Shown piece after piece: positions 428 through 8,677 of a stretch of DNA of 8,677 bases. Origin of the DNA: Candidatus Desantisbacteria bacterium CG1_02_38_46. GTDB lineage: Bacteria; Desantisbacteria; UBA1551; UBA1559. The stretch covers positions 1 through 8,677 of the forward strand of contig MNUO01000062.1 of the NCBI GenBank assembly GCA_001871015.1. The letters run 5' to 3'. The notes under the pieces were generated by a model. The model ran no database searches, was not told where the DNA came from, and was given only the letters and a program-made list of their open reading frames with translations. The translations under genes and the position numbers were made by a program. Within the stretch, counting starts at the first letter, position 1; each line of letters begins with the position of its first letter.

Positions 428-967
428 ATGAAAGATAAATTGATTTTAGACAAAAAGAATGTGGGGAAGACTATCTCAGCGCTCTGCGATGAAATTATCA
501 AAAGAAACCAGGAGAGAGGAAGTCTTAATGACCTGGTTATAATTGGTATCAGAACGCGCGGAGCTCATTTAGCAGAAAGAATTGTCCAGTTTATAAATAG
601 AAGAGCAGAAGTAGAAATTCCCCTCGGCATTCTGGATATTACTCTCTACAGGGATGACCTCACCACTATTTCAGCACAGCCAATTGTCCGCAGCACTGAG
701 ATTTCATTTGACCTCACCGACAAAAAAGTTGTGCTTGTAGATGATGTCCTTTATACAGGCAGAACAATTCGTTCAGCAATGGACGAACTCATAGATTTTG
801 GACGTCCAAAGAATATCCAGTTAGCGGTTCTAATTGACCGGGGACACAGGGAGTTACCAATACAGGCAGATTATGTCGGGAAAATAGTACCGACAAAGAA
901 GAAAGAAATTATAGAAGTTCGACTTGCAGAAACTGATGGAAAAGATGAAGTGGTCTTAAAGCCATGA
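428..967 (+). CDS. pyrR: PyrR, bifunctional pyrimidine operon regulator / uracil phosphoribosyltransferase
   Basis: PyrR senses UMP/UTP and, in Gram-positive bacteria, binds pyr mRNA leaders to promote attenuation; many homologues also convert uracil and PRPP to UMP. The 179-residue length is normal for the family. The PRPP-binding motif [13 protein letters not shown] is at residues 101-113. Other family signatures are [12 protein letters not shown] near 41-52, [10 protein letters not shown] at 69-78 and [11 protein letters not shown] at 135-145. The ATG start has only a weak ribosome binding site (CAGG at 415-418). The stop overlaps the pyrB start by 4 nt (ATGA), implying translational coupling. 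It is the first gene after the promoter, as expected for an autoregulator. No canonical PyrR-binding loop (TCCNGNGAGG-like) was found in the leader, so its RNA target here is uncertain. Confidence 0.96.
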
Positions 968-1932
968 AAAAGATTACTGGTCTTAAGAGAAAAGATTTAC
1001 TTGGAATTGAGGAGTTGGGCAAAGAAGAAATTAGTCTTATTCTTGATACTGCGAAATCATTCAAAGAGGTTTCAGTTCGCCCGATTAAAAAAGTGCCGGC
1101 ATTGCGAGGCAAAACCGTCGTTAACCTATTCTATGAACCAAGCACTCGCACCCGTATTTCTTTTGAACTAGCGGCAAAACGGTTAAGCGCTGATGTTATT
1201 AATATTTCAACTTCCGCCAGCAGCGTAGTTAAAGGTGAGAGTCTTGTGGATACAGCAAAGAATATCCAGGCAATGGCAGTGGATGCAGTTGTAATAAGGC
1301 ATTCCGCTGAAGGTTCAGCACATCTTCTCTCTAAAGAATTGAAGGCTTCAGTTGTCAATGCTGGAGATGGTTCGCATGAACATCCCACCCAGGCACTCCT
1401 GGATATGTTTACAATTCGGGAACATAAGAAGAATATCGAAGGGCTCAATGTTGTAATCATCGGGGATATTTTGCACAGCAGGGTTGCCCGTTCAAACATC
1501 TGGGGATTGACGAAGATGGGTGCGAAAGTAAAACTTGTGGGTCCGCCCACACTTATTCCTCCATTTGTCAAAAGTTTAAAGGTGGAAGTTTTTTATCGTC
1601 CAGAAGATGCACTTTCAGATGCTGATGTGGCGATGTGTCTCAGGATTCAGAGGGAACGCCAGACAAGTAATTTCTTTCCAAGTATTCACGAATACGTGAA
1701 AGTGTTCAATCTAACCATGGAGAGATTAAAATTAGCCAGGAAAGATTGTCTGGTGATGCATCCAGGTCCAATCAACAGGGGGATCGAAATATCCAGTGAA
1801 GTAGCGGATGGTACGCAGTCAGTGATACTGGAGCAGGTTACAAATGGGATTGCAACAAGGATGGCGGTGCTATATTTGTTGCTGGCACAAAAATCTAAAG
1901 TCGAGTGGGGTACCCGCCGAAGGCGGGTCTGA
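964..1932 (+). CDS. pyrB: aspartate carbamoyltransferase catalytic subunit
   Basis: PyrB condenses carbamoyl phosphate with aspartate to carbamoyl-aspartate, the first committed step of UMP synthesis. The carbamoyl-phosphate site is seen as FYEPSTRTR (residues 57-64 region), the mobile-loop lysine as K90 in [12 protein letters not shown] at 140-143, and MHPGPINRG near 266-274, with RIQRERQ in the aspartate domain. The core matches the usual length of about 310. The last 11 residues (312-322, [11 protein letters not shown]) are encoded by the interrupted palindromic repeat starting at 1897, and the stop at 1930-1932 lies inside that repeat, so the basic tail is repeat-derived. The start overlaps the pyrR stop by 4 nt. 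No pyrI regulatory-subunit gene is adjacent, so the enzyme is probably a PyrB-only trimer or associates with PyrC; that part is inference. Confidence 0.97.
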
Positions 1933-1937
1933 CCACT
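1897..1937. repeat. interrupted 23-bp repeat carrying a second hairpin; encodes the PyrB tail
   Basis: The outer parts AAAGTCGAGT (1897-1906) and GACCACT (1931-1937) are identical to the two ends of the units that follow from 1938. The central AAACTC of a normal unit is replaced by 24 bp containing a different perfect hairpin, ACCCGCC-GAA-GGCGGGT (1912-1928). The pyrB reading frame runs through it and stops at TGA 1930-1932. A nested insertion or recombination between two repeat types would explain it. There is no T-run after the hairpin, so it does not look like an intrinsic terminator. Confidence 0.8.
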
Positions 1938-2052
1938 AAAGTCGAGTAAACTCGACCACTACAATCGAGTAAACTCGACCACTACAATCGAGTAAACTCG
2001 ACCACTAAAGTCGAGTAAACTCGACCACTACAATCGAGTAAACTCGACCACT
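1938..2052. repeat. five tandem 23-bp TAAA-loop palindromic units between pyrB and pyrC
   Basis: Five units of exactly 23 bp (1938, 1961, 1984, 2007, 2030) follow one another. Each contains TCGAG-TAAA-CTCGA and ends in CCACT. Two variants alternate as a-b-b-a-b: type a begins AAAGTCGAG (6-bp stem GTCGAG/CTCGAC) and type b begins ACAATCGAG (5-bp stem). A degenerate piece (CAGTAGTGACACGACC, about 2054-2069) follows. The array fills the only long gap in the operon and would be transcribed as a series of small stem-loops. It is not a CRISPR, because there are no unique spacers. Confidence 0.95.
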
Positions 2053-2092
2053 ACAGTAGTGACACGACCCCGGCTCTGCTTAAGAGGAAAAA

Positions 2093-3376
2093 ATGATATT
2101 GATAAAGAATGGCAAAGTCGTAAATCCTGGGGGAAAAGAGGGAAATCTCCATCTTCTCATCAAGGACAATAAAATAGTAAAAATGGAGAGGGATATCAGA
2201 GAGAAAGGTGCTCGGGTTATAGATGCAAATGGAAAGATTGTCGCGCCCGGACTTATTGATTTGCATGCCCATCTGCGCGAGCCCGGCAGAGAAGATGAAG
2301 AGACAATTTCACAAACCTGTATGGCTGCTGCACGCGGCGGTTTCACAAGTATCTGCTGTATGGCGAACACCAATCCTCCTATTGACAATCAGGGGACAGT
2401 GAAGTTTATTAAGGACAAGGCAATTCTATCTGGTTGTGCAATAAATATATTTCCTGTAGGAGCAATCAGCAAGGGTAGAAAAGGTGAAGAACTAGCTGAG
2501 ATTGCCGAATTAAAAGAAGCAGGAGTTGTTGGGTTATCTGATGACGGCAATTGTGTCCTGAATGCGCTCTTGATGAGAAGAGCATTTGAATATACTAAGA
2601 TGTTTGACCTGCCGCTCATCTCTCATTGTGAGGACAAAAATCTTTCTAAGAATGGCGTAATGAATGAGGGTTATTTTTCAACAGTACTGGGGTTGCCAGG
2701 AATTCCAGATGAGGCAGAGGAAGTTATGGTTTACCGGGACATATCTCTTGCGAGGATGACTGAAGGCAAACTTCATATAACTCATACAAGCACAAGGGGA
2801 AGTGTAGAGTTAATAAGACAGGCAAAGAGAAAGAAAGTGAAGATAAGTGCTGATGTCACACCCCATCACTTAATTCTTACAGATGAGGCGGTAAAGAGTT
2901 TTGATACAAATACCAAAATGAATCCGCCATTGCGAAGCCGGGAGGATATAAAAGCTTTAAAGGATGGATTGAGCGATGGAACTATTGATGTTATAGCAAC
3001 CGACCATGCTCCACACAGCAGGGAAGAGAAAGAAGATGATTTCAAATCCGCACCATTCGGAATAGTTGGACTTGAGACAGGGCTTGCTCTTATTCTCACA
3101 GAGATTGTCGATAAAGGCATAATTACACTTAAAAGTGCAATTTCAAAGTTGAGCACAAATCCAGCAAAAATTTTAGGATTGAATAAAGGAATTTTGAAAA
3201 AAGGGGGAGATGCTGACATAATTATTATTGACCCGGATATAAAGTGGACAATTACTACGGATGATTTTGCAGGACCCTGTAAAAACTCTCCATTTATAGG
3301 AAGAGAAGTAAAGGGACGCGCGATTATGACTATAGTTGCGGGCAAAATTGTTTTTTTGCATAACCCAGGATTTTAA
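2093..3376 (+). CDS. pyrC: dihydroorotase (class I, zinc-dependent)
   Basis: PyrC reversibly cyclises carbamoyl-aspartate to dihydroorotate in the cytoplasm. It is an amidohydrolase-fold metalloenzyme; the 427-residue length fits the long class I/allantoinase-like form. Metal and substrate residues seen in order are H58 and H60 with R62 in DLHAHLREPG, MANTNPPID at about 90-98, D151 in LSDDGN, H178 in SHCED, H231 in HITHTST, and catalytic D304 in ATDHAPHS. The ATG start is preceded by AGAGG (2083-2087) with 5-nt spacing. It is separated from pyrB by the repeat array rather than overlapping it, so it depends on its own ribosome binding site. Only 2 nt separate it from pyrK. No insertion is evident. 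Confidence 0.97.
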   Translation: MILIKNGKVVNPGGKEGNLHLLIKDNKIVKMERDIREKGARVIDANGKIVAPGLIDLHAHLREPGREDEETISQTCMAAARGGFTSICCMANTNPPIDNQGTVKFIKDKAILSGCAINIFPVGAISKGRKGEELAEIAELKEAGVVGLSDDGNCVLNALLMRRAFEYTKMFDLPLISHCEDKNLSKNGVMNEGYFSTVLGLPGIPDEAEEVMVYRDISLARMTEGKLHITHTSTRGSVELIRQAKRKKVKISADVTPHHLILTDEAVKSFDTNTKMNPPLRSREDIKALKDGLSDGTIDVIATDHAPHSREEKEDDFKSAPFGIVGLETGLALILTEIVDKGIITLKSAISKLSTNPAKILGLNKGILKKGGDADIIIIDPDIKWTITTDDFAGPCKNSPFIGREVKGRAIMTIVAGKIVFLHNPGF

Positions 3377-3378
3377 TA

Positions 3379-4287
3379 ATGGTTCAAATATTTAAATGCA
3401 GGATTTTAGAAAATAGTAGGGTTGGACAAAACTATTTCAGAATGATATTTGCTGCCCCGCAAATTGCTCGAGAATCGAGAGCGGGGCAGTTTGTTCATCT
3501 GAGGTGCACTACATCTATTGACCCTCTTTTGAGAAGACCTTTCAGCATACACAGAATGGACAGGGACAAGGTTGAGATTTTATACAGAGTGATTGGAAGG
3601 GGGACTGCAGAAATTGCTAAAAGAAAAGCCGGAGAAATTGTTGATGTTATGGGCCCACTCGGGCAGGGGTTTGAAATCCCGAAGGGTGGTGAGCATAGCC
3701 GAGCCATTCTTATTGCTGGTGGAATTGGGGTTGCGCCGATGGTAATGCTGGCAGAGGAAATAAAAAAAGTCAGAGAGTCTAAGTGTCTCCAATGCTCCGA
3801 TGTTACATCGGAGATAACGGAGTCCTTCGGACAAAGAGTCAGAGTGTTGATTGGCGCAAAGACAAAAAAAGAGTTATTGTGTGAAAAAGAATTCAAGAAA
3901 TCAGGATGTGAGGTGAAGGTTGCTACTCAAGATGGCTCAAAAGGATTCAAAGGTTTAGTTACCGAGTTATTAGAGCAATCACTCACAACGCACAACGCAC
4001 CCCCCGCAAGATTGGCAGATTGCCAATCATTAACGCGGGGGTCTACGAGACGCACAACGATTTACGCTTGCGGCCCAAAAGAAATGTTGATGAAAGTAGC
4101 AAAAATTACGCAGAAATATAATATACCAGCGCAGGTTTCGCTTGAGGAAAATATGGCTTGCGGGATTGGTGCGTGCTATGGCTGTTCGGTTAAAACAAAA
4201 AATGGATATAAATTGGTGTGTAAAGATGGGCCGGTATTTAATGCGGATGAGATAGTGTGGAAAGATGAATACCAACCTGGAAGTTAA
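3379..4287 (+). CDS. pyrK: dihydroorotate dehydrogenase electron-transfer subunit, with two in-frame palindromic insertions
   Basis: PyrK is the FAD and [2Fe-2S] subunit that passes electrons from PyrD's FMN to NAD+. The FAD site is RRPFSIH (52-58), the nucleotide-domain glycines are LIAGGIGVAP (111-120), CGPKEM is at 231-236, and the cluster ligands are C261, C266, C269 and C281. The protein has 302 residues; removing two 23-residue inserts leaves 256, the normal family size. Insert A is about residues 133-155 and insert B about 205-227. Both sit just before predicted beta strands (VLIGAKT and TIYACGP), in probable surface loops, and the conserved blocks on either side rejoin perfectly without them. 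The ATG has AGGA at 3367-3370. The gene overlaps pyrD by 23 nt, consistent with stoichiometric production of the complex. The cofactor residues are intact, so the gene is probably functional. Confidence 0.95.
   Translation: MVQIFKCRILENSRVGQNYFRMIFAAPQIARESRAGQFVHLRCTTSIDPLLRRPFSIHRMDRDKVEILYRVIGRGTAEIAKRKAGEIVDVMGPLGQGFEIPKGGEHSRAILIAGGIGVAPMVMLAEEIKKVRESKCLQCSDVTSEITESFGQRVRVLIGAKTKKELLCEKEFKKSGCEVKVATQDGSKGFKGLVTELLEQSLTTHNAPPARLADCQSLTRGSTRRTTIYACGPKEMLMKVAKITQKYNIPAQVSLEENMACGIGACYGCSVKTKNGYKLVCKDGPVFNADEIVWKDEYQPGS
3768..3844. repeat. palindromic element A inserted in pyrK, with 8-bp flanking direct repeats
   Basis: AGTCAGAG occurs at 3768-3775 and 3837-3844, 69 bp apart. Between them is a 61-bp element: outer stem CTCC/GGAG (3787-3790 with 3819-3822), an 8-bp inner stem CTCCGATG/CATCGGAG (3795-3802 with 3806-3813) with loop TTA, and a 3' mini-hairpin GTCC-TTC-GGAC (3822-3832). 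Deleting 69 bp joins the surrounding codons as KKVRVLIGAK, which reads as normal PyrK. The direct repeats look like a target-site duplication. Confidence 0.85.
3984..4059. repeat. palindromic element B inserted in pyrK, with 7-bp flanking direct repeats
   Basis: CACAACG occurs at 3984-3990 and 4053-4059, 69 bp apart, with a third copy abutting the first at 3991-3997. The element has an outer stem CCCCCGC/GCGGGGG (4001-4007 with 4035-4041), an 8-bp inner stem GATTGGCA/TGCCAATC (4010-4017 with 4021-4028) with loop GAT, and a 3' mini-hairpin GTCT-ACG-AGAC (4041-4051). Deleting 69 bp rejoins EQSLTTIYACGPKEM, matching the conserved PyrK block. The order of parts is the same as in element A, though the stem sequences differ. 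Confidence 0.85.
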
Positions 4288-5200
4288 TATTGCTGGGATA
4301 AAAATGAAGAATCCGGTTATGTGTGCTTCAGGCACCTTTAATTTCGGGGAGGAATATGGTAAATTTTTTGATTTGAAAAAACTTGGCGCTCTCGTTACAA
4401 AGACAATAACTTTGAAATCCAGAGAAGGTAATTTACCACCCAGGATATATGAGACTCCATCAGGAATGTTGAATTCTATAGGTCTGCAGAATCCCGGGGT
4501 TGAAATGTTTCTGAAGGAGAAAATGCCTTTCTTAAGGAAAATTGGAATTCCGGTCATAGTAAGTGTTGCAGGAGAAACTCTGGATGAATGGACAGCACTG
4601 GTGAGAGAATTAAAAGGGGTTAGAGGAATTTCCGCAATAGAATTGAATATTTCCTGCCCAAATATGAAGATGCGTAGTGGCCGAGCTCGCTCGACAATGT
4701 TTTCCCAGGATGCCGATGCCACTTTTGAAGTTGTTCGTAAAGTACGCAAGACTACAAACTTTCCTCTCATTGTGAAATTGTCTCCGAATGTCACAGATAT
4801 AACTGTCATAGCAAAAGCAGCGCAGAAGGGTGGAGCAGATGCGATTTCATTGATAAATACTGTGCTGGGAATGGCGGTTAATCTTGAAAAGAGGGCACCG
4901 GTTTTGGATGCGATTACAGGTGGTCTTTCAGGGCCTGCAATTAAACCAATTGCATTGCGGATGGTCTGGGAGGTGTCCAATGCCGTTAAAATTCCGCTCA
5001 TCGGTATGGGTGGCATAATGACAGCACGGGATGCACTTGAATTTATGCTCGCCGGAGCAAGTGCTGTAGCAGTTGGAACAGCAAACTTTATCAATCCACG
5101 GGTAATACCTCAGATAATTGAAGAAATTAAAAAATATTTGGTTAAAAATAAAATCAGCAATATAAATTCCTTAAAAATAGGGACAGCCCCTATTTTATAA
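4265..5200 (+). CDS. pyrD: dihydroorotate dehydrogenase catalytic subunit (type 1B)
   Basis: PyrD oxidises dihydroorotate to orotate with FMN and hands electrons to PyrK. Seen: ASGTFNFGEEY (21-31), TKTITL with K46, NSIGLQNPG (70-78), the catalytic cysteine C131 in LNISCPN typical of class 1 enzymes, VKLSPNVTD (170-178), LINTVLGM (196-203) and GMGGIMTA (247-254). The length, 311, is near normal for the family. The ATG at 4265 lies inside the pyrK end and fits the expected N-terminus; its ribosome binding site is weak (GGAAAG). Two oddities stand out. The loop after CPNMK (residues 137-144, RSGRARST) is encoded by a sequence like the 23-bp operon repeat and appears a few residues longer than usual. 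The C-terminal LKIGTAPIL (303-311) is encoded by another palindrome. Confidence 0.96.
   Translation: MNTNLEVNIAGIKMKNPVMCASGTFNFGEEYGKFFDLKKLGALVTKTITLKSREGNLPPRIYETPSGMLNSIGLQNPGVEMFLKEKMPFLRKIGIPVIVSVAGETLDEWTALVRELKGVRGISAIELNISCPNMKMRSGRARSTMFSQDADATFEVVRKVRKTTNFPLIVKLSPNVTDITVIAKAAQKGGADAISLINTVLGMAVNLEKRAPVLDAITGGLSGPAIKPIALRMVWEVSNAVKIPLIGMGGIMTARDALEFMLAGASAVAVGTANFINPRVIPQIIEEIKKYLVKNKISNINSLKIGTAPIL
4674..4696 (-). repeat. possible inverted copy of the 23-bp repeat within pyrD
   Basis: The + strand reads GTAGTGG-CCGAG-CTCG-CTCGACA. The reverse complement of the operon repeat reads GTAGTGG-TCGAG-TTTA-CTCGATT. Thus the GTAGTGG end and the CGAG/CTCG arms match, with the 4-nt loop and three other positions changed. 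It codes for RSGRARST in the loop after the catalytic-cysteine motif. I found no convincing flanking direct repeat, so insertion is inferred from similarity only. Confidence 0.5.
5174..5196. repeat. AGGGACAG-type palindrome across the pyrD 3' end
   Basis: AAAATAGGG (5174-5182) pairs perfectly with CCCTATTTT (5188-5196) around a 5-nt loop (ACAGC). It encodes the last residues of PyrD (KIGTAPIL) and the stop follows directly at 5198-5200. The weak AT-rich stem and trailing T-run resemble a terminator. Its place inside an operon, and its likeness to the AAAAAGGGGACGC motif (reverse strand) at 6476-6509, favour a dispersed repeat instead. Confidence 0.65.
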
Positions 5201-5904: not shown

Positions 5905-6476
5905 GCAGCGTAGGTAAAAATGTAATGAGCCTTCTTAAAAAAAGCAAAGCACTGTTAGATGGTCATTTTCTTCTCAGTTCAGGGCTGCACAGCAATAGAT
6001 ATGTGCAATGCGCTATGGTACTGCAATATCCTAATTATGCTACATTTCTTGCAAGAAAGTTAGTAAAAAAATTCAGCAAAACAAAAATTGATGTTGTTGT
6101 GTCCCCGGCAATCGGAGGAATAATTTTTGGCCAGGAAGTTGCCAGGGCACTAAGGGCAAGAGCTGTATTTACTGAAAGGGAAGAAGGTAAGTTGGCACTG
6201 CGGCGTGGATTTGATATAAAGAAAGGCGAAAAAGTCCTTGTTGTAGAAGACGTGCTCACAACAGGCGGTTCTGTCAGGGAGATTCTGAAAATTGTCAGGG
6301 AAAAAAATGGAAAATTAATTGGCATCGGGTCTATAGTTAATAGAAGCACAAAGCGATTGAATTTTAAAGTCCCGCTCGAATCAATCCTCATGCTGCAAAT
6401 AAAAACCTACGATACACAACATTGTCCGTTTTGTAAGGAAGGATTACCTCTTGTGAAACCGGGGAGCAAAAAATAG
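5901..6476 (+). CDS. pyrE: orotate phosphoribosyltransferase
   Basis: PyrE transfers phosphoribose from PRPP to orotate, giving OMP for PyrF encoded just upstream. The PRPP motif VLVVEDVLTTGGS is at residues 112-124, SSGLHSNRY at 26-34, SPAIGGIIFG at 68-77, and the flexible catalytic loop around TEREEGK (91-97). The C-terminus has a CPFC pair (175-178) followed by EGLPLVKPGSK, typical of one PyrE subgroup; the cysteines may bind a metal or form a disulfide, but this is not shown. The length, 191, is normal. The TAG stop (6474-6476) runs directly into the first GAAGCGTCCCC repeat, whose first G is the last base of the stop codon. Confidence 0.96.
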   Translation: MSSVGKNVMSLLKKSKALLDGHFLLSSGLHSNRYVQCAMVLQYPNYATFLARKLVKKFSKTKIDVVVSPAIGGIIFGQEVARALRARAVFTEREEGKLALRRGFDIKKGEKVLVVEDVLTTGGSVREILKIVREKNGKLIGIGSIVNRSTKRLNFKVPLESILMLQIKTYDTQHCPFCKEGLPLVKPGSKK

Positions 6477-6509
6477 AAGCGTCCCCTTTTTTTGAAGCGT
6501 CCCCTTTTT
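6476..6509. repeat. two direct copies of a GAAGCGTCCCCTTTTT repeat between pyrE and alr
   Basis: GAAGCGTCCCC followed by seven T is at 6476-6493 and a second copy with five T is at 6494-6509, back to back. The reverse strand reads AAAAAGGGGACGCTTC. Motifs of this kind are, as I recall, dispersed in many bacterial genomes and often found with REP-associated Y1 transposases; no such transposase is in the window. The pair lies exactly where the ribosome binding site of alr would be expected. Confidence 0.85.
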
Positions 6510-6512
6510 ATT

Positions 6513-7700
6513 ATGTTGAAATGGGTAGAAGTGAATCTTGGGAATATTGCCTCAAATATGCGTTACATTCGCAAAACTGTGTCCAAAGAAGCAAAGGTTA
6601 TCGCTGTAGTAAAGGCAGACGCATATGGACATGGTGCAACAGAAGTCAGTAGAATCGTTCTGAAAAATGGCGCAGATATGCTTGGTGTTGCTAATATTGA
6701 TGAAGCAATGGAACTACGCCGAGCCGGAATAAAAGTTCCTATTTTACTTTTAAACTGGACAGAACCACCCCATCTTGAAGATGTTGTTAGAAATAGTTTG
6801 GCACAGACAATCTTTGATTTAGATTCTGCAAGGGTATTGTCCAGCGTAGCAAAGAAAATGAACAGGACTGTTTTAGTCCATATCAAGATTGATACCGGAA
6901 TGGGCAGGCTTGGATTATTGGCTGAGGATGCTCCGGGATTTGTGCAAAAGGTAGCAATTCTTCCCAATTTGAAAATTGAAGGTATTTTTTCACATCTGTC
7001 CGTTGCAGGAGATGAACGCACTTATAGCTTTAATCAGTTTCAAAAGTTTATGTCTGTTTTGAACGAATTGCAGAAAACCGGAATCAAAATTCCTGTTCAG
7101 CACATTGCAAATAGCGCTGCTACTCTTTTCTATCCACGCATGCACTTAACTGCGGTTCGCCCGGGGATTATCATATATGGGGTTTCTCCATGGGGTTTAC
7201 CAAAAGTAGTCCCCCCTTCTTGCTTTCGCAAGAAAGCAGGGGGGACAAAAGTAGGTACTTTGGAAGTGAAGAAGAAATGTAAGTTTCTGAAACCCGGGAT
7301 GTCTTTCAAGACAAAAATTGTATTTATTAAAGAGGTACCAAAAGGGACGAGCATAAGTTATGGCAGGACTTTCATAACAAAACGCAGGTCTTTAATTGCA
7401 GATATACCGATTGGATATTCGCACGGTTATAACAGGAAACTTTCAAATAAATCCTGGGTTCTTGTAAAGGGAAAAAGAGTACCGCTTGTAGGCAGGATTT
7501 GTATGGACCAGTGCCTGATTGATGTTAGCAGTGTGCATGGAATAAAAGTAGGAGACGAGGTGGTTTTATTCGGCAGACAGGGAAAAGAAGAAATTTCAGC
7601 AGAAGAACTGGCAAGTTGGTCGGGAACTATAGGTTATGAGGTTGTCACAACGATAGGCAGACTTGTAAAGAGGATTTATGTTTGGAAAAAAGATAAATAA
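6513..7700 (+). CDS. alr: alanine racemase, with a 15-codon palindromic insertion
   Basis: Alr is a PLP enzyme that interconverts L- and D-alanine for peptidoglycan. From ATG 6513 the protein has 395 residues. The PLP lysine is K34 in VVKADAYGHGA, GMGRLG marks the barrel, the second catalytic base is Y283 in ISYGRTF, and the substrate-site block VGRICMDQ is at about 326-333. A TTG at 6492 would add seven repeat-encoded residues, but MLKWVEVNL matches the usual N-terminus, so ATG is preferred. Neither start has a visible Shine-Dalgarno sequence: the repeats at 6476-6509 occupy that place. Residues 233-247 (VPPSCFRKKAGGTKV) are an insertion bounded by a 9-bp direct repeat, between the barrel and C-terminal beta domains; without it the length is 380 and normal. 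A role outside pyrimidine synthesis suggests read-through grouping rather than pathway linkage. Confidence 0.95.
   Translation: MLKWVEVNLGNIASNMRYIRKTVSKEAKVIAVVKADAYGHGATEVSRIVLKNGADMLGVANIDEAMELRRAGIKVPILLLNWTEPPHLEDVVRNSLAQTIFDLDSARVLSSVAKKMNRTVLVHIKIDTGMGRLGLLAEDAPGFVQKVAILPNLKIEGIFSHLSVAGDERTYSFNQFQKFMSVLNELQKTGIKIPVQHIANSAATLFYPRMHLTAVRPGIIIYGVSPWGLPKVVPPSCFRKKAGGTKVGTLEVKKKCKFLKPGMSFKTKIVFIKEVPKGTSISYGRTFITKRRSLIADIPIGYSHGYNRKLSNKSWVLVKGKRVPLVGRICMDQCLIDVSSVHGIKVGDEVVLFGRQGKEEISAEELASWSGTIGYEVVTTIGRLVKRIYVWKKDK
7201..7254. repeat. palindromic element C inserted in alr, with 9-bp flanking direct repeats
   Basis: CAAAAGTAG occurs at 7201-7209 and 7246-7254, 45 bp (15 codons) apart. The intervening hairpin has an outer 8-bp stem GTCCCCCC/GGGGGGAC (7209-7216 with 7239-7246) and an inner 7-bp stem TGCTTTC/GAAAGCA (7221-7227 with 7232-7238) with a GCAA loop and a 4-nt bulge on the left. 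An alternative inner stem is TTCTTGC/GCAAGAA. Deleting 45 bp gives GLPKVGTLEVKKK, an uninterrupted Alr linker. It lacks the 3' mini-hairpin of the pyrK elements, so it may be a different repeat type. Confidence 0.85.
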
Positions 7701-7803
7701 AAAAGATATTATCCAATTATTAAACGACCTCGTTTCTATTAGAAGCGATAATCCAGGCAGGGAAGAGGCGGAAAAAGGAGGAAAAAGTGAAGAAGTCAGT
7801 TAA
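7678..7803 (+). pseudogene. N-terminal remnant of an M20-family peptidase/deacylase gene
   Basis: An ATG (7678) overlaps the end of alr by 23 nt and has a good ribosome binding site (AAAGAGG, 7667-7673). It opens a 41-residue frame beginning MFGKKINKKDIIQLLNDL and continuing VSIRSDNPGREEAEKG. The pattern LLndLVSIrSdNPgrEEe is the conserved N-terminal start of M20 metallopeptidases and deacylases (ArgE/DapE/carboxypeptidase type, from memory). The frame then ends at 7801-7803, just inside the next gene, and the metal-binding domains are absent. The likely history is an intact gene after alr that lost nearly all its body by deletion, leaving its start and a purine-rich stretch now used as ribosome binding site for the isomerase. 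It may still be translated as a coupling peptide; a chance ORF is less likely given the motif. Confidence 0.6.
7775..7781 (+). promoter_or_regulatory. strong ribosome binding site deciding the GTG start of the isomerase
   Basis: AAGGAGG, a near-perfect anti-16S match, lies 5 nt before GTG at 7787. No ATG occupies this position, so the site fixes the non-ATG start. It lies within the coding part of the peptidase remnant. Confidence 0.88.
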
Positions 7804-8596
7804 CAAATGGGTATTGCCAGGTGGCATGGGACTGAAGGAAGGTTTTGCATTATTAAAAAAGACAGGGTTTGAAGGTATGGAGATTAATTTTGCTAAGGAG
7901 GGCGCAGATGTTAACCTGAAGACCACAAAGCCAGAAGCAGAACAGATAGTTTCTTTGGCAAACGAAGCAGGGATTAAGGTCTGCAGTGTTTGTGCGGGGT
8001 GGCCGCCTCTTACAAGTAATAGTGCAGAGGAAAGGAAAGAAGCGATTGAGTATGCCATGAAAGCAATTGAGGTAACTTCCTGGGTTGGAGCAGATACAGT
8101 ACTTATTGTGCCAGGAACTGTAAAAGAGGATGTTTCTTATGATGTAGTTTATGAAAGAGCAAAAAAAGCAATGCTTGAAATTGCTCCTGTGGCAGAAAAA
8201 TATAAAGTTTTTGTTGGTGTGGAAAATGTCTGGAACAAATTTTTGCTCAGTCCGCTTGAAATGAAGAATTTCATTGAGGAAATAAATCAACCATATGTCC
8301 AGGTATATTTTGATGTAGGAAATTTTGTTCCCTGGTCATATCCGGAACAATGGATAAGGATACTTGGTAAAAAAATAAAGAAAATTCATTTAAAGGATTT
8401 TCGTACAAGCGTAGGGAATGCTGGAGGTTTTGTAAATTTACTTGAAGGAGATGTGAACTGGCCTGAAGTGCTGAAGGCACTAAAAGAAATTGGTTATGAC
8501 GATTATCTTACCGCAGAGTTTGGTCCATACAAATACTATCCTGAGACTATGCTTATTCATCTTTCAGTTGCAATGGACAAGATACTTGGGAAATAA
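7787..8596 (+). CDS. sugar-phosphate isomerase/epimerase (xylose isomerase-like TIM barrel, UlaE-like)
   Basis: This is a 269-residue member of the AP-endonuclease-2/xylose-isomerase-like barrel family. The four expected metal ligands are E146 in GVENVWNKFLLSP, D176 in VYFDVGN, H201 in KIHLKDF and E244 in TAEFGPY. The ENVWNKFLLSPLEM block is characteristic of L-ribulose-5-phosphate 3-epimerase / hexulose-6-phosphate isomerase-like proteins, so a ketose-phosphate or ketose substrate epimerised at C3 is likely, but the substrate cannot be read from sequence. There is no signal peptide, so it is cytoplasmic. It starts with GTG after a strong ribosome binding site and may be co-transcribed with alr. 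It has no evident functional link to pyrimidine synthesis. No insertion is seen. Confidence 0.85.
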   Translation: MKKSVNKWVLPGGMGLKEGFALLKKTGFEGMEINFAKEGADVNLKTTKPEAEQIVSLANEAGIKVCSVCAGWPPLTSNSAEERKEAIEYAMKAIEVTSWVGADTVLIVPGTVKEDVSYDVVYERAKKAMLEIAPVAEKYKVFVGVENVWNKFLLSPLEMKNFIEEINQPYVQVYFDVGNFVPWSYPEQWIRILGKKIKKIHLKDFRTSVGNAGGFVNLLEGDVNWPEVLKALKEIGYDDYLTAEFGPYKYYPETMLIHLSVAMDKILGK

Positions 8597-8597
8597 A

Positions 8598-8677
8598 TCA
8601 GGACTAAAGTCCTGAGTTACGTTGGGCAGGTCAGGACTAAAGTCCTGAGTTACGTTGGGCAGGTCAGGACTAAAGTC
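8598..8677. repeat. 33-bp tandem palindromic repeat running off the right edge
   Basis: Two complete 33-bp units (8598-8630 and 8631-8663) and 14 bp of a third (8664-8677) are identical as far as seen. Each begins with TCAGGAC-TAAA-GTCCTGA, a 7-bp stem with TAAA loop, followed by GTTACGTTGGGCAGG. The stem-TAAA-stem design is the same as in the 23-bp repeats at 361-383 and 1938-2052, but with a different stem and a longer tail. It starts 2 bases after the isomerase stop codon; no T-run makes it a terminator. Confidence 0.95.

Follow-up and report, generated by a model that had tools for sequence, protein, structure and literature searches.

The window (the whole stretch of DNA that was analysed, 8,677 nucleotides) corresponds to contig C89 of a 1.73 Mb assembly with 133 contigs and 88% completeness. 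It carries pyrB (aspartate carbamoyltransferase) at 964-1932 (+), with 84% identity to the gene of Ca. Desantisbacteria CG1_02_49_89, followed by pyrC (dihydroorotase) at 2093-3376 (+), which has a matching ORF in that relative. REP sequence occupied most of the gap between the two genes, up to where the pyrC ribosome-binding region begins. The initial annotation had described an otherwise nearly gapless operon in which this gap was notable. Most junctions were indeed tight, with pyrR/pyrB, pyrC/pyrK, pyrK/pyrD and pyrF/pyrE overlapping or nearly so, but the nearest relative (CG1_02_49_89; PyrB identity 84-85%, same order, other family) also had a gap of 151 bp between pyrB and pyrC. That gap contained other repeat-like filler, and the GTAGTGG element described below was absent from it. 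The pyrB-pyrC gap appears to tolerate repeats.

Structure and boundaries of the repeat array

Five full units of 23 bp each were found at 1938-2052 in the top-strand order a-b-b-a-b, where unit a is AAAGTCGAGTAAACTCGACCACT and unit b begins ACAATCGAG. Tandem Repeats Finder reported the array at 1931-2055 with a period of 23, 5.4 copies, 94% matches and a score of 222, and a separate repeat search gave a matching register with five spacings of 23. Both searches confirmed the five hairpin units and the unit order first noted for this DNA. The units had also been called exact, but they are two variants that differ at two bases and not five identical copies. Self-comparison of the array showed 100% identity (56/56) at a shift of 69 bp and 94% at shifts of 23 bp and 46 bp. 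The a-b-b-a-b order is a period-3 pattern; given the perfect periodicity at 69 bp, duplication of a three-unit (69-bp) block is probable. Adjoining units had zero spacer between them, and a CRISPR array was ruled out since the 23-bp units abut without unique spacers.

On the bottom strand, each unit consisted of GTAGTGG, a 6-7 bp stem and a TTTA loop. Two stem types were distinguished, Q (GCAGAG/GCAGAC) and R (GTCGAG/GGCGAG). The short REP units, all on the minus strand, were located at 1941-1962 (tag GTAGTGG, R-type stem GTCGAG/CTCGAC, loop TTTA), 1964-1985 (tag GTAGTGG, stem GTCGAG/CTCGAT with 5/6 pairs), 1987-2008 (decayed tag TTAGTGG, stem GTCGAG/CTCGAT, assigned from its sequence and the 69-bp comparison), 2010-2031 (tag GTAGTGG, stem GTCGAG/CTCGAC) and 2033-2054 (tag GTAGTGG, stem GTCGAG/CTCGAT).

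The array is therefore present at 1938-2052 as originally delimited, but the element is larger because REP sequence is joined to it on both sides. A 40-nt R-type long-loop REP in array orientation (1900-1939, minus strand; TTAGTGGTCAGACCCGCCTTCGGCGGGTACCCCACTCGAC) joins the left end and has close genome copies at L016 7818 and L026 9620. To the right lies an inverted long-loop REP remnant (2056-2079, plus strand; GTAGTGACACGACCCCGGCTCTGC) with Q-type ends and the inner hairpin missing, whose tag faces that of the last short unit. Fuller copies of this remnant were found at L016 4090 and at L025 2358 and 4373, and a near-identical array/remnant junction was located 15 kb away on the window's own contig (L004). 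The pyrB ORF closes with 12 codons and a stop (1894-1932, plus strand) that were largely REP sequence, the stop codon being supplied by the long-loop REP at 1900-1939, while PyrB of the relative ends in LLLAQKQI-stop.

Two further units were found among the pyr genes of the window. A single REP unit of the GTAGTGG family with a Q-type stem (GCAGAG/CTCTGC) was located upstream of pyrR at 362-383 on the minus strand (L012 383), and a REP-like unit lay in frame inside pyrD at 4674-4695 on the plus strand (GTAGTGGCCGAGCTCGCTCGAC). Other palindromic repeats were in frame in pyrK (3780-3845 and 4000-4055) and alr (7198-7257), with another at the pyrD C-terminus (5176-5200). These in-frame repeats of pyrK, alr and pyrD resemble Rickettsia RPE-type insertions, and PyrK and PyrD of the relative also had unusual inserts at similar places.

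Genome-wide distribution and structure of the GTAGTGG element

A search with the strict pattern GTAGTGGYMGAGYTTRCTCKRC produced 145 copies in the 1.73-Mb genome (81 forward, 64 reverse) spread over many contigs, and its reversed control produced 0 matches. With free stem ends, 162 copies were found, and a looser pattern gave 196 against 2 control matches. These whole-genome counts are from pattern searches, while the arrangement and tag statistics were obtained from 278.6 kb around matches, on contigs chosen for their matches and thus biased to repeat-rich contigs, with genes called by ORF length alone. In this sample, GTAGTG was followed by a hairpin (at least 5/6 pairs) at 115/197 sites (58%). 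The rate was 0-2% for control tags without GTAG except for TTAGTG (4%), whose hairpin matches are decayed tags, and 0-6% for GTAG with other following bases. The element, as read on the bottom strand, is GTAGTG, a 6-7 bp stem and a loop of 2-4 nt (TTTA, CTTG or ATTG). It occurred as singles, inverted pairs of the two stem types and direct runs mostly of one type, with 2 to 8 units per locus elsewhere in the window's genome. Outside ORFs lay 82 of 114 units, even though ORFs made up 86.5% of the sampled DNA.

Among other loci, an eight-unit head-to-tail GTAGTGG array was located at L014 14384-14577 (C131). Its 2nd and 5th units are variants, which hints at a three-unit periodicity parallel to that of the window array. 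Five GTAGTGG elements in alternating orientation were found at L016 7647-7770 (C76) inside one 316-codon ORF (7310-8257); this ORF may encode a protein decorated with REPs or may be spurious. The strict pattern had no exact match in viral contigs, and a virus-borne origin was rejected.

The stem was analysed for covariation in 43 distinct elements from five genomes, with those of the window's genome gathered by tag and loop and pairing not required. Changes on both sides were present at 6/6 stem pairs, and 92.6% of cells were paired compared to 73% after shuffling. The covariation score was 0.585 against 0.222 for shuffled sets, none of which reached it (0/500), and structures slid along the alignment all scored ≤0.094. 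The tag is thus fixed and the stem is free to vary if pairing is kept, with the loop in few formats.

The initial annotation had suggested an expanding satellite. Its recent local duplication is upheld by the perfect 69-bp periodicity, but the unit is dispersed genome-wide in 145 strict copies. A plain minisatellite, made by on-the-spot slippage and unrelated to mobile elements, would likewise be in line with the 69-bp periodicity and the two unit variants, which point to local duplication. However, the identically tagged unit was found singly and in inverted pairs throughout the genome and in other phyla, and covariation from copy to copy was seen in the stem but not in the tag, a pattern that slippage alone cannot yield. 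The dispersed copies already contradict the plain minisatellite, which is retained for the expansion step only and is very improbable as the whole explanation. It is equally improbable that the units are sites for nucleoid or DNA-repair proteins (gyrase, IHF, DNA polymerase I) selected for chromosome structuring. Passages in PMC2817692 and PMC8266576 ascribe such roles to E. coli BIMEs, but here the stem sequence is variable if paired, unlike a sequence-specific duplex site, and it is the unpaired tag at the hairpin foot that stays constant.

The array region folded strongly compared to shuffled sequences both as RNA (z -7.5, 0/200) and as DNA (z -7.3, 0/200). This RNA fold, the position between co-directional genes and the frequent view of REPs downstream of genes as RNA elements (PMC3733652) would suit a regulatory RNA array, kept because its hairpins protect or process the pyr mRNA or lower pyrC expression. 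However, the units were dispersed to well over 100 sites, some inside ORFs, and the intergenic copies between co-directional genes were oriented with transcription in 37 cases and against it in 41. The pyrB-pyrC gap of the relative has a similar length without the element. On the coding strand, no intrinsic terminator (G+C-rich stem and T run) was found in 1850-2150 and this candidate was ruled out, and an Rfam family was rejected with no match at gathering score. A side effect on the mRNA is possible but nothing demands one; the array can be explained without a regulatory role, such as the tuning of mRNA stability or of the PyrB:PyrC ratio suggested in the initial annotation, and such a role is unlikely to be the reason for it.

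Pairing of stem types within and between genomes

Close neighbours in the 278.6 kb sample were in the same direction in 37 cases and inverted in 34. All inverted neighbours differed in stem type (34/34, at approximately 17 separate inverted-pair sites, with some pairs sharing one array), while 32/37 direct neighbours were of one stem type (permutation 0/20000). The window array conforms to this arrangement, with five R-type units and the R-type long element in one direction followed by the inverted Q-ended remnant. The element was also present in G073 and G083, and a loose pattern found 83 copies, many of them letter-identical, in G142, which has only the domain in common with the window's genome. 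Close inverted pairs read from the G142 match list were of mixed type in 24/24 cases. Contamination of metagenome-assembled genomes as the source of the common elements in the two phyla is unlikely because the 83 copies were over many contigs of G142.

In the survey of Di Nocera et al. (PMC3733652), heterodimers predominate in many REP families, with the reason left open, and head-to-tail dimers are rare in most genomes. Compared to those genomes, head-to-tail pairs were not rare here (37 direct against 34 inverted). It is conceivable, though we hold it only tentatively, that these arrangements amount to a two-type system with an exceptionless inverted Q-with-R rule, direct runs mostly of one type and elements letter-identical across phyla. 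If this is true, a 22-nt element has moved from phylum to phylum, or else a conserved enzyme needing both hairpin types has kept it unchanged.

Transposase genes and proposed origin of the array

The GTAG-tagged REP super-family comprises 24 families (Di Nocera et al. 2013, PMC3733652). Features common to those REPs and the present element are a palindrome of 20-40 bp with an unpaired GTAG at one end, a 6-7 bp stem with complementary changes, a 2-4 nt loop, a mostly intergenic location in more than 100 copies as singles, dimers or groups, and REP sequence at gene ends that gives stop codons. For assignment to GTAG REPs, a palindrome stem of 6-13 bp was used as the criterion; the element had the unpaired GTAG at the 5' foot, complementary stem variation, a high dispersed copy number and mostly extragenic positions. 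The string GTAGTGG was absent from the running text of PMC3733652, and a search of the text of non-subscription papers with the unit sequence returned no paper about bacterial repeats, so that no earlier description of the GTAGTGG sequence family was found. Overall, the element is of a known kind, and GTAGTGG represents a new family of GTAG REPs in an uncultivated lineage.

REPINs and BIMEs of P. fluorescens SBW25 and E. coli (PMC3116915, PMC8266576) also have inverted pairs with short conserved spacers, tandem clusters and clusters beside RAYT genes. In the window array, by contrast, single REPs follow one another head to tail and the only inverted element is the remnant at one end, and inverted pairs in this genome always combined the two stem types. 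Cleavage of single-stranded REPs by TnpA-REP enzymes depends on the GTAG tag and on the hairpin, to degrees that vary from group to group (PMC8266576). Both the window's genome and its relatives contained TnpA-REP/RAYT genes (PF01797, NF047646). Hairpins tagged GTAG or GTAAC flanked several of these genes, but none found in the window's genome was flanked by the GTAGTGG family. A cognate RAYT flanked by the matching REP is frequent but not universal, and REPtrons can be missing from genomes with REPs (PMC3733652).

A PF01797 search of 15 genomes found no clean REPtron of the GTAGTGG REP, with L261 and L257 coming close. The window's genome gave 3 Y1_Tnp matches, none of them bordered by this exact REP; its assembly is approximately 88% complete and in 133 contigs, so this absence weighs little. 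Such a gene was likewise not found in G001 or G109, and no Y1_Tnp genes at all were found in G073 and G083. Of the three matches in the window's genome, L009 had GAAACGTCCCC-type repeats around the gene, L010 (1462-2445) encodes 327 aa with a DnaA-like C-terminal DNA-binding domain (PF08299) and was flanked by inverted GGGTCAGACCTCAACAT repeats, and L011 is an IS200-like fragment at a contig end, approximately 300 bp from two GTAGTGG or GTAGCGG hairpins. Among relatives, RAYT genes were seen in association with REPs of sister families. In G001, the nearest relative, RAYTs L185 and L187 adjoined GTAACTC-tagged hairpins in head-to-tail runs, one of which alternated two types (a/b), and RAYT L189 lay beside other hairpin runs. 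GTAGTG-tagged hairpins with a different loop flanked RAYT L257 of G142, and GTAGGG-tagged hairpins with a TTTA loop flanked RAYT L263 of G171, a genome of another phylum. The RAYT-like Y1 gene L261 of G171 (1456-1983) contained an in-frame GTAGTGGCAGAGCTTGCTCTGC element, and a longer GTAGTGG hairpin lay at the 3' end of the gene; the 175-aa Y1_Tnp protein it encodes had its best NCBIfam match with the REP-associated tyrosine transposase (78 bits against a cut-off of 80). A CT cleavage dinucleotide at element edges was not clearly enriched.

Two other repeat families of the window touch on these genes. At 8598-8677, a second REP family was present as 2.4 tandem copies of TCAGGACTAAAGTCCTGAGTTACGTTGGGCAGG with the bottom-strand tag GTAACTC, which also flanks L185 and L187 of G001. 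At 6476-6509, GAAGCGTCCCCTTTTT occurred twice and near-identical repeats flank the L009 Y1_Tnp. As in TIRYT/TIRtrons with GGGGWSAS inverted repeats (PMC3733652), AAAAGGGGACG-type repeats flanked L009 and several Y1_Tnp genes of relatives, and were also found at 6476-6509; the AAAAGGGGACG-type repeats form a family of their own, with no relation to the GTAGTGG array.

Taken together, the array is most probably a cluster of GTAG-tagged REPs enlarged locally by tandem duplication (probability of about 0.85). Single elements and inverted pairs would have spread as single-stranded DNA hairpins by an HUH/Y1 transposase (RAYT/TnpA-REP) that would read the GTAG tag and the hairpin; spread by a RAYT-type enzyme is likely. 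Comparison with the relative of another family suggests that one REP copy landed at the pyrB end, where REP sequence now gives the stop codon. Slippage or unequal recombination between 23-bp copies may then have enlarged the array, with duplication of the 69-bp, three-unit block as the last event. Inverted pairs of the same type, which would form one long perfect palindrome, were presumably lost, and for that reason inverted pairs of different types and direct runs of the same type would remain. If the pyrB/pyrC mRNA is affected at all, this would be a secondary consequence.

For specialists, the points of interest are that the two-type rule holds strictly in two phyla and that head-to-tail runs are frequent. 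A heterodimer rule in two phyla sharpens the question left open by Di Nocera et al. and offers a clean test case of whether a same-type inverted pair is deleted or a mixed pair is required for transposition. For the lineage itself, the finding extends GTAG REPs to an uncultivated group (the order of Ca. Desantisbacteria CG1_02_49_89) and shows a route from dispersed REPs to tandem hairpin runs inside operons.
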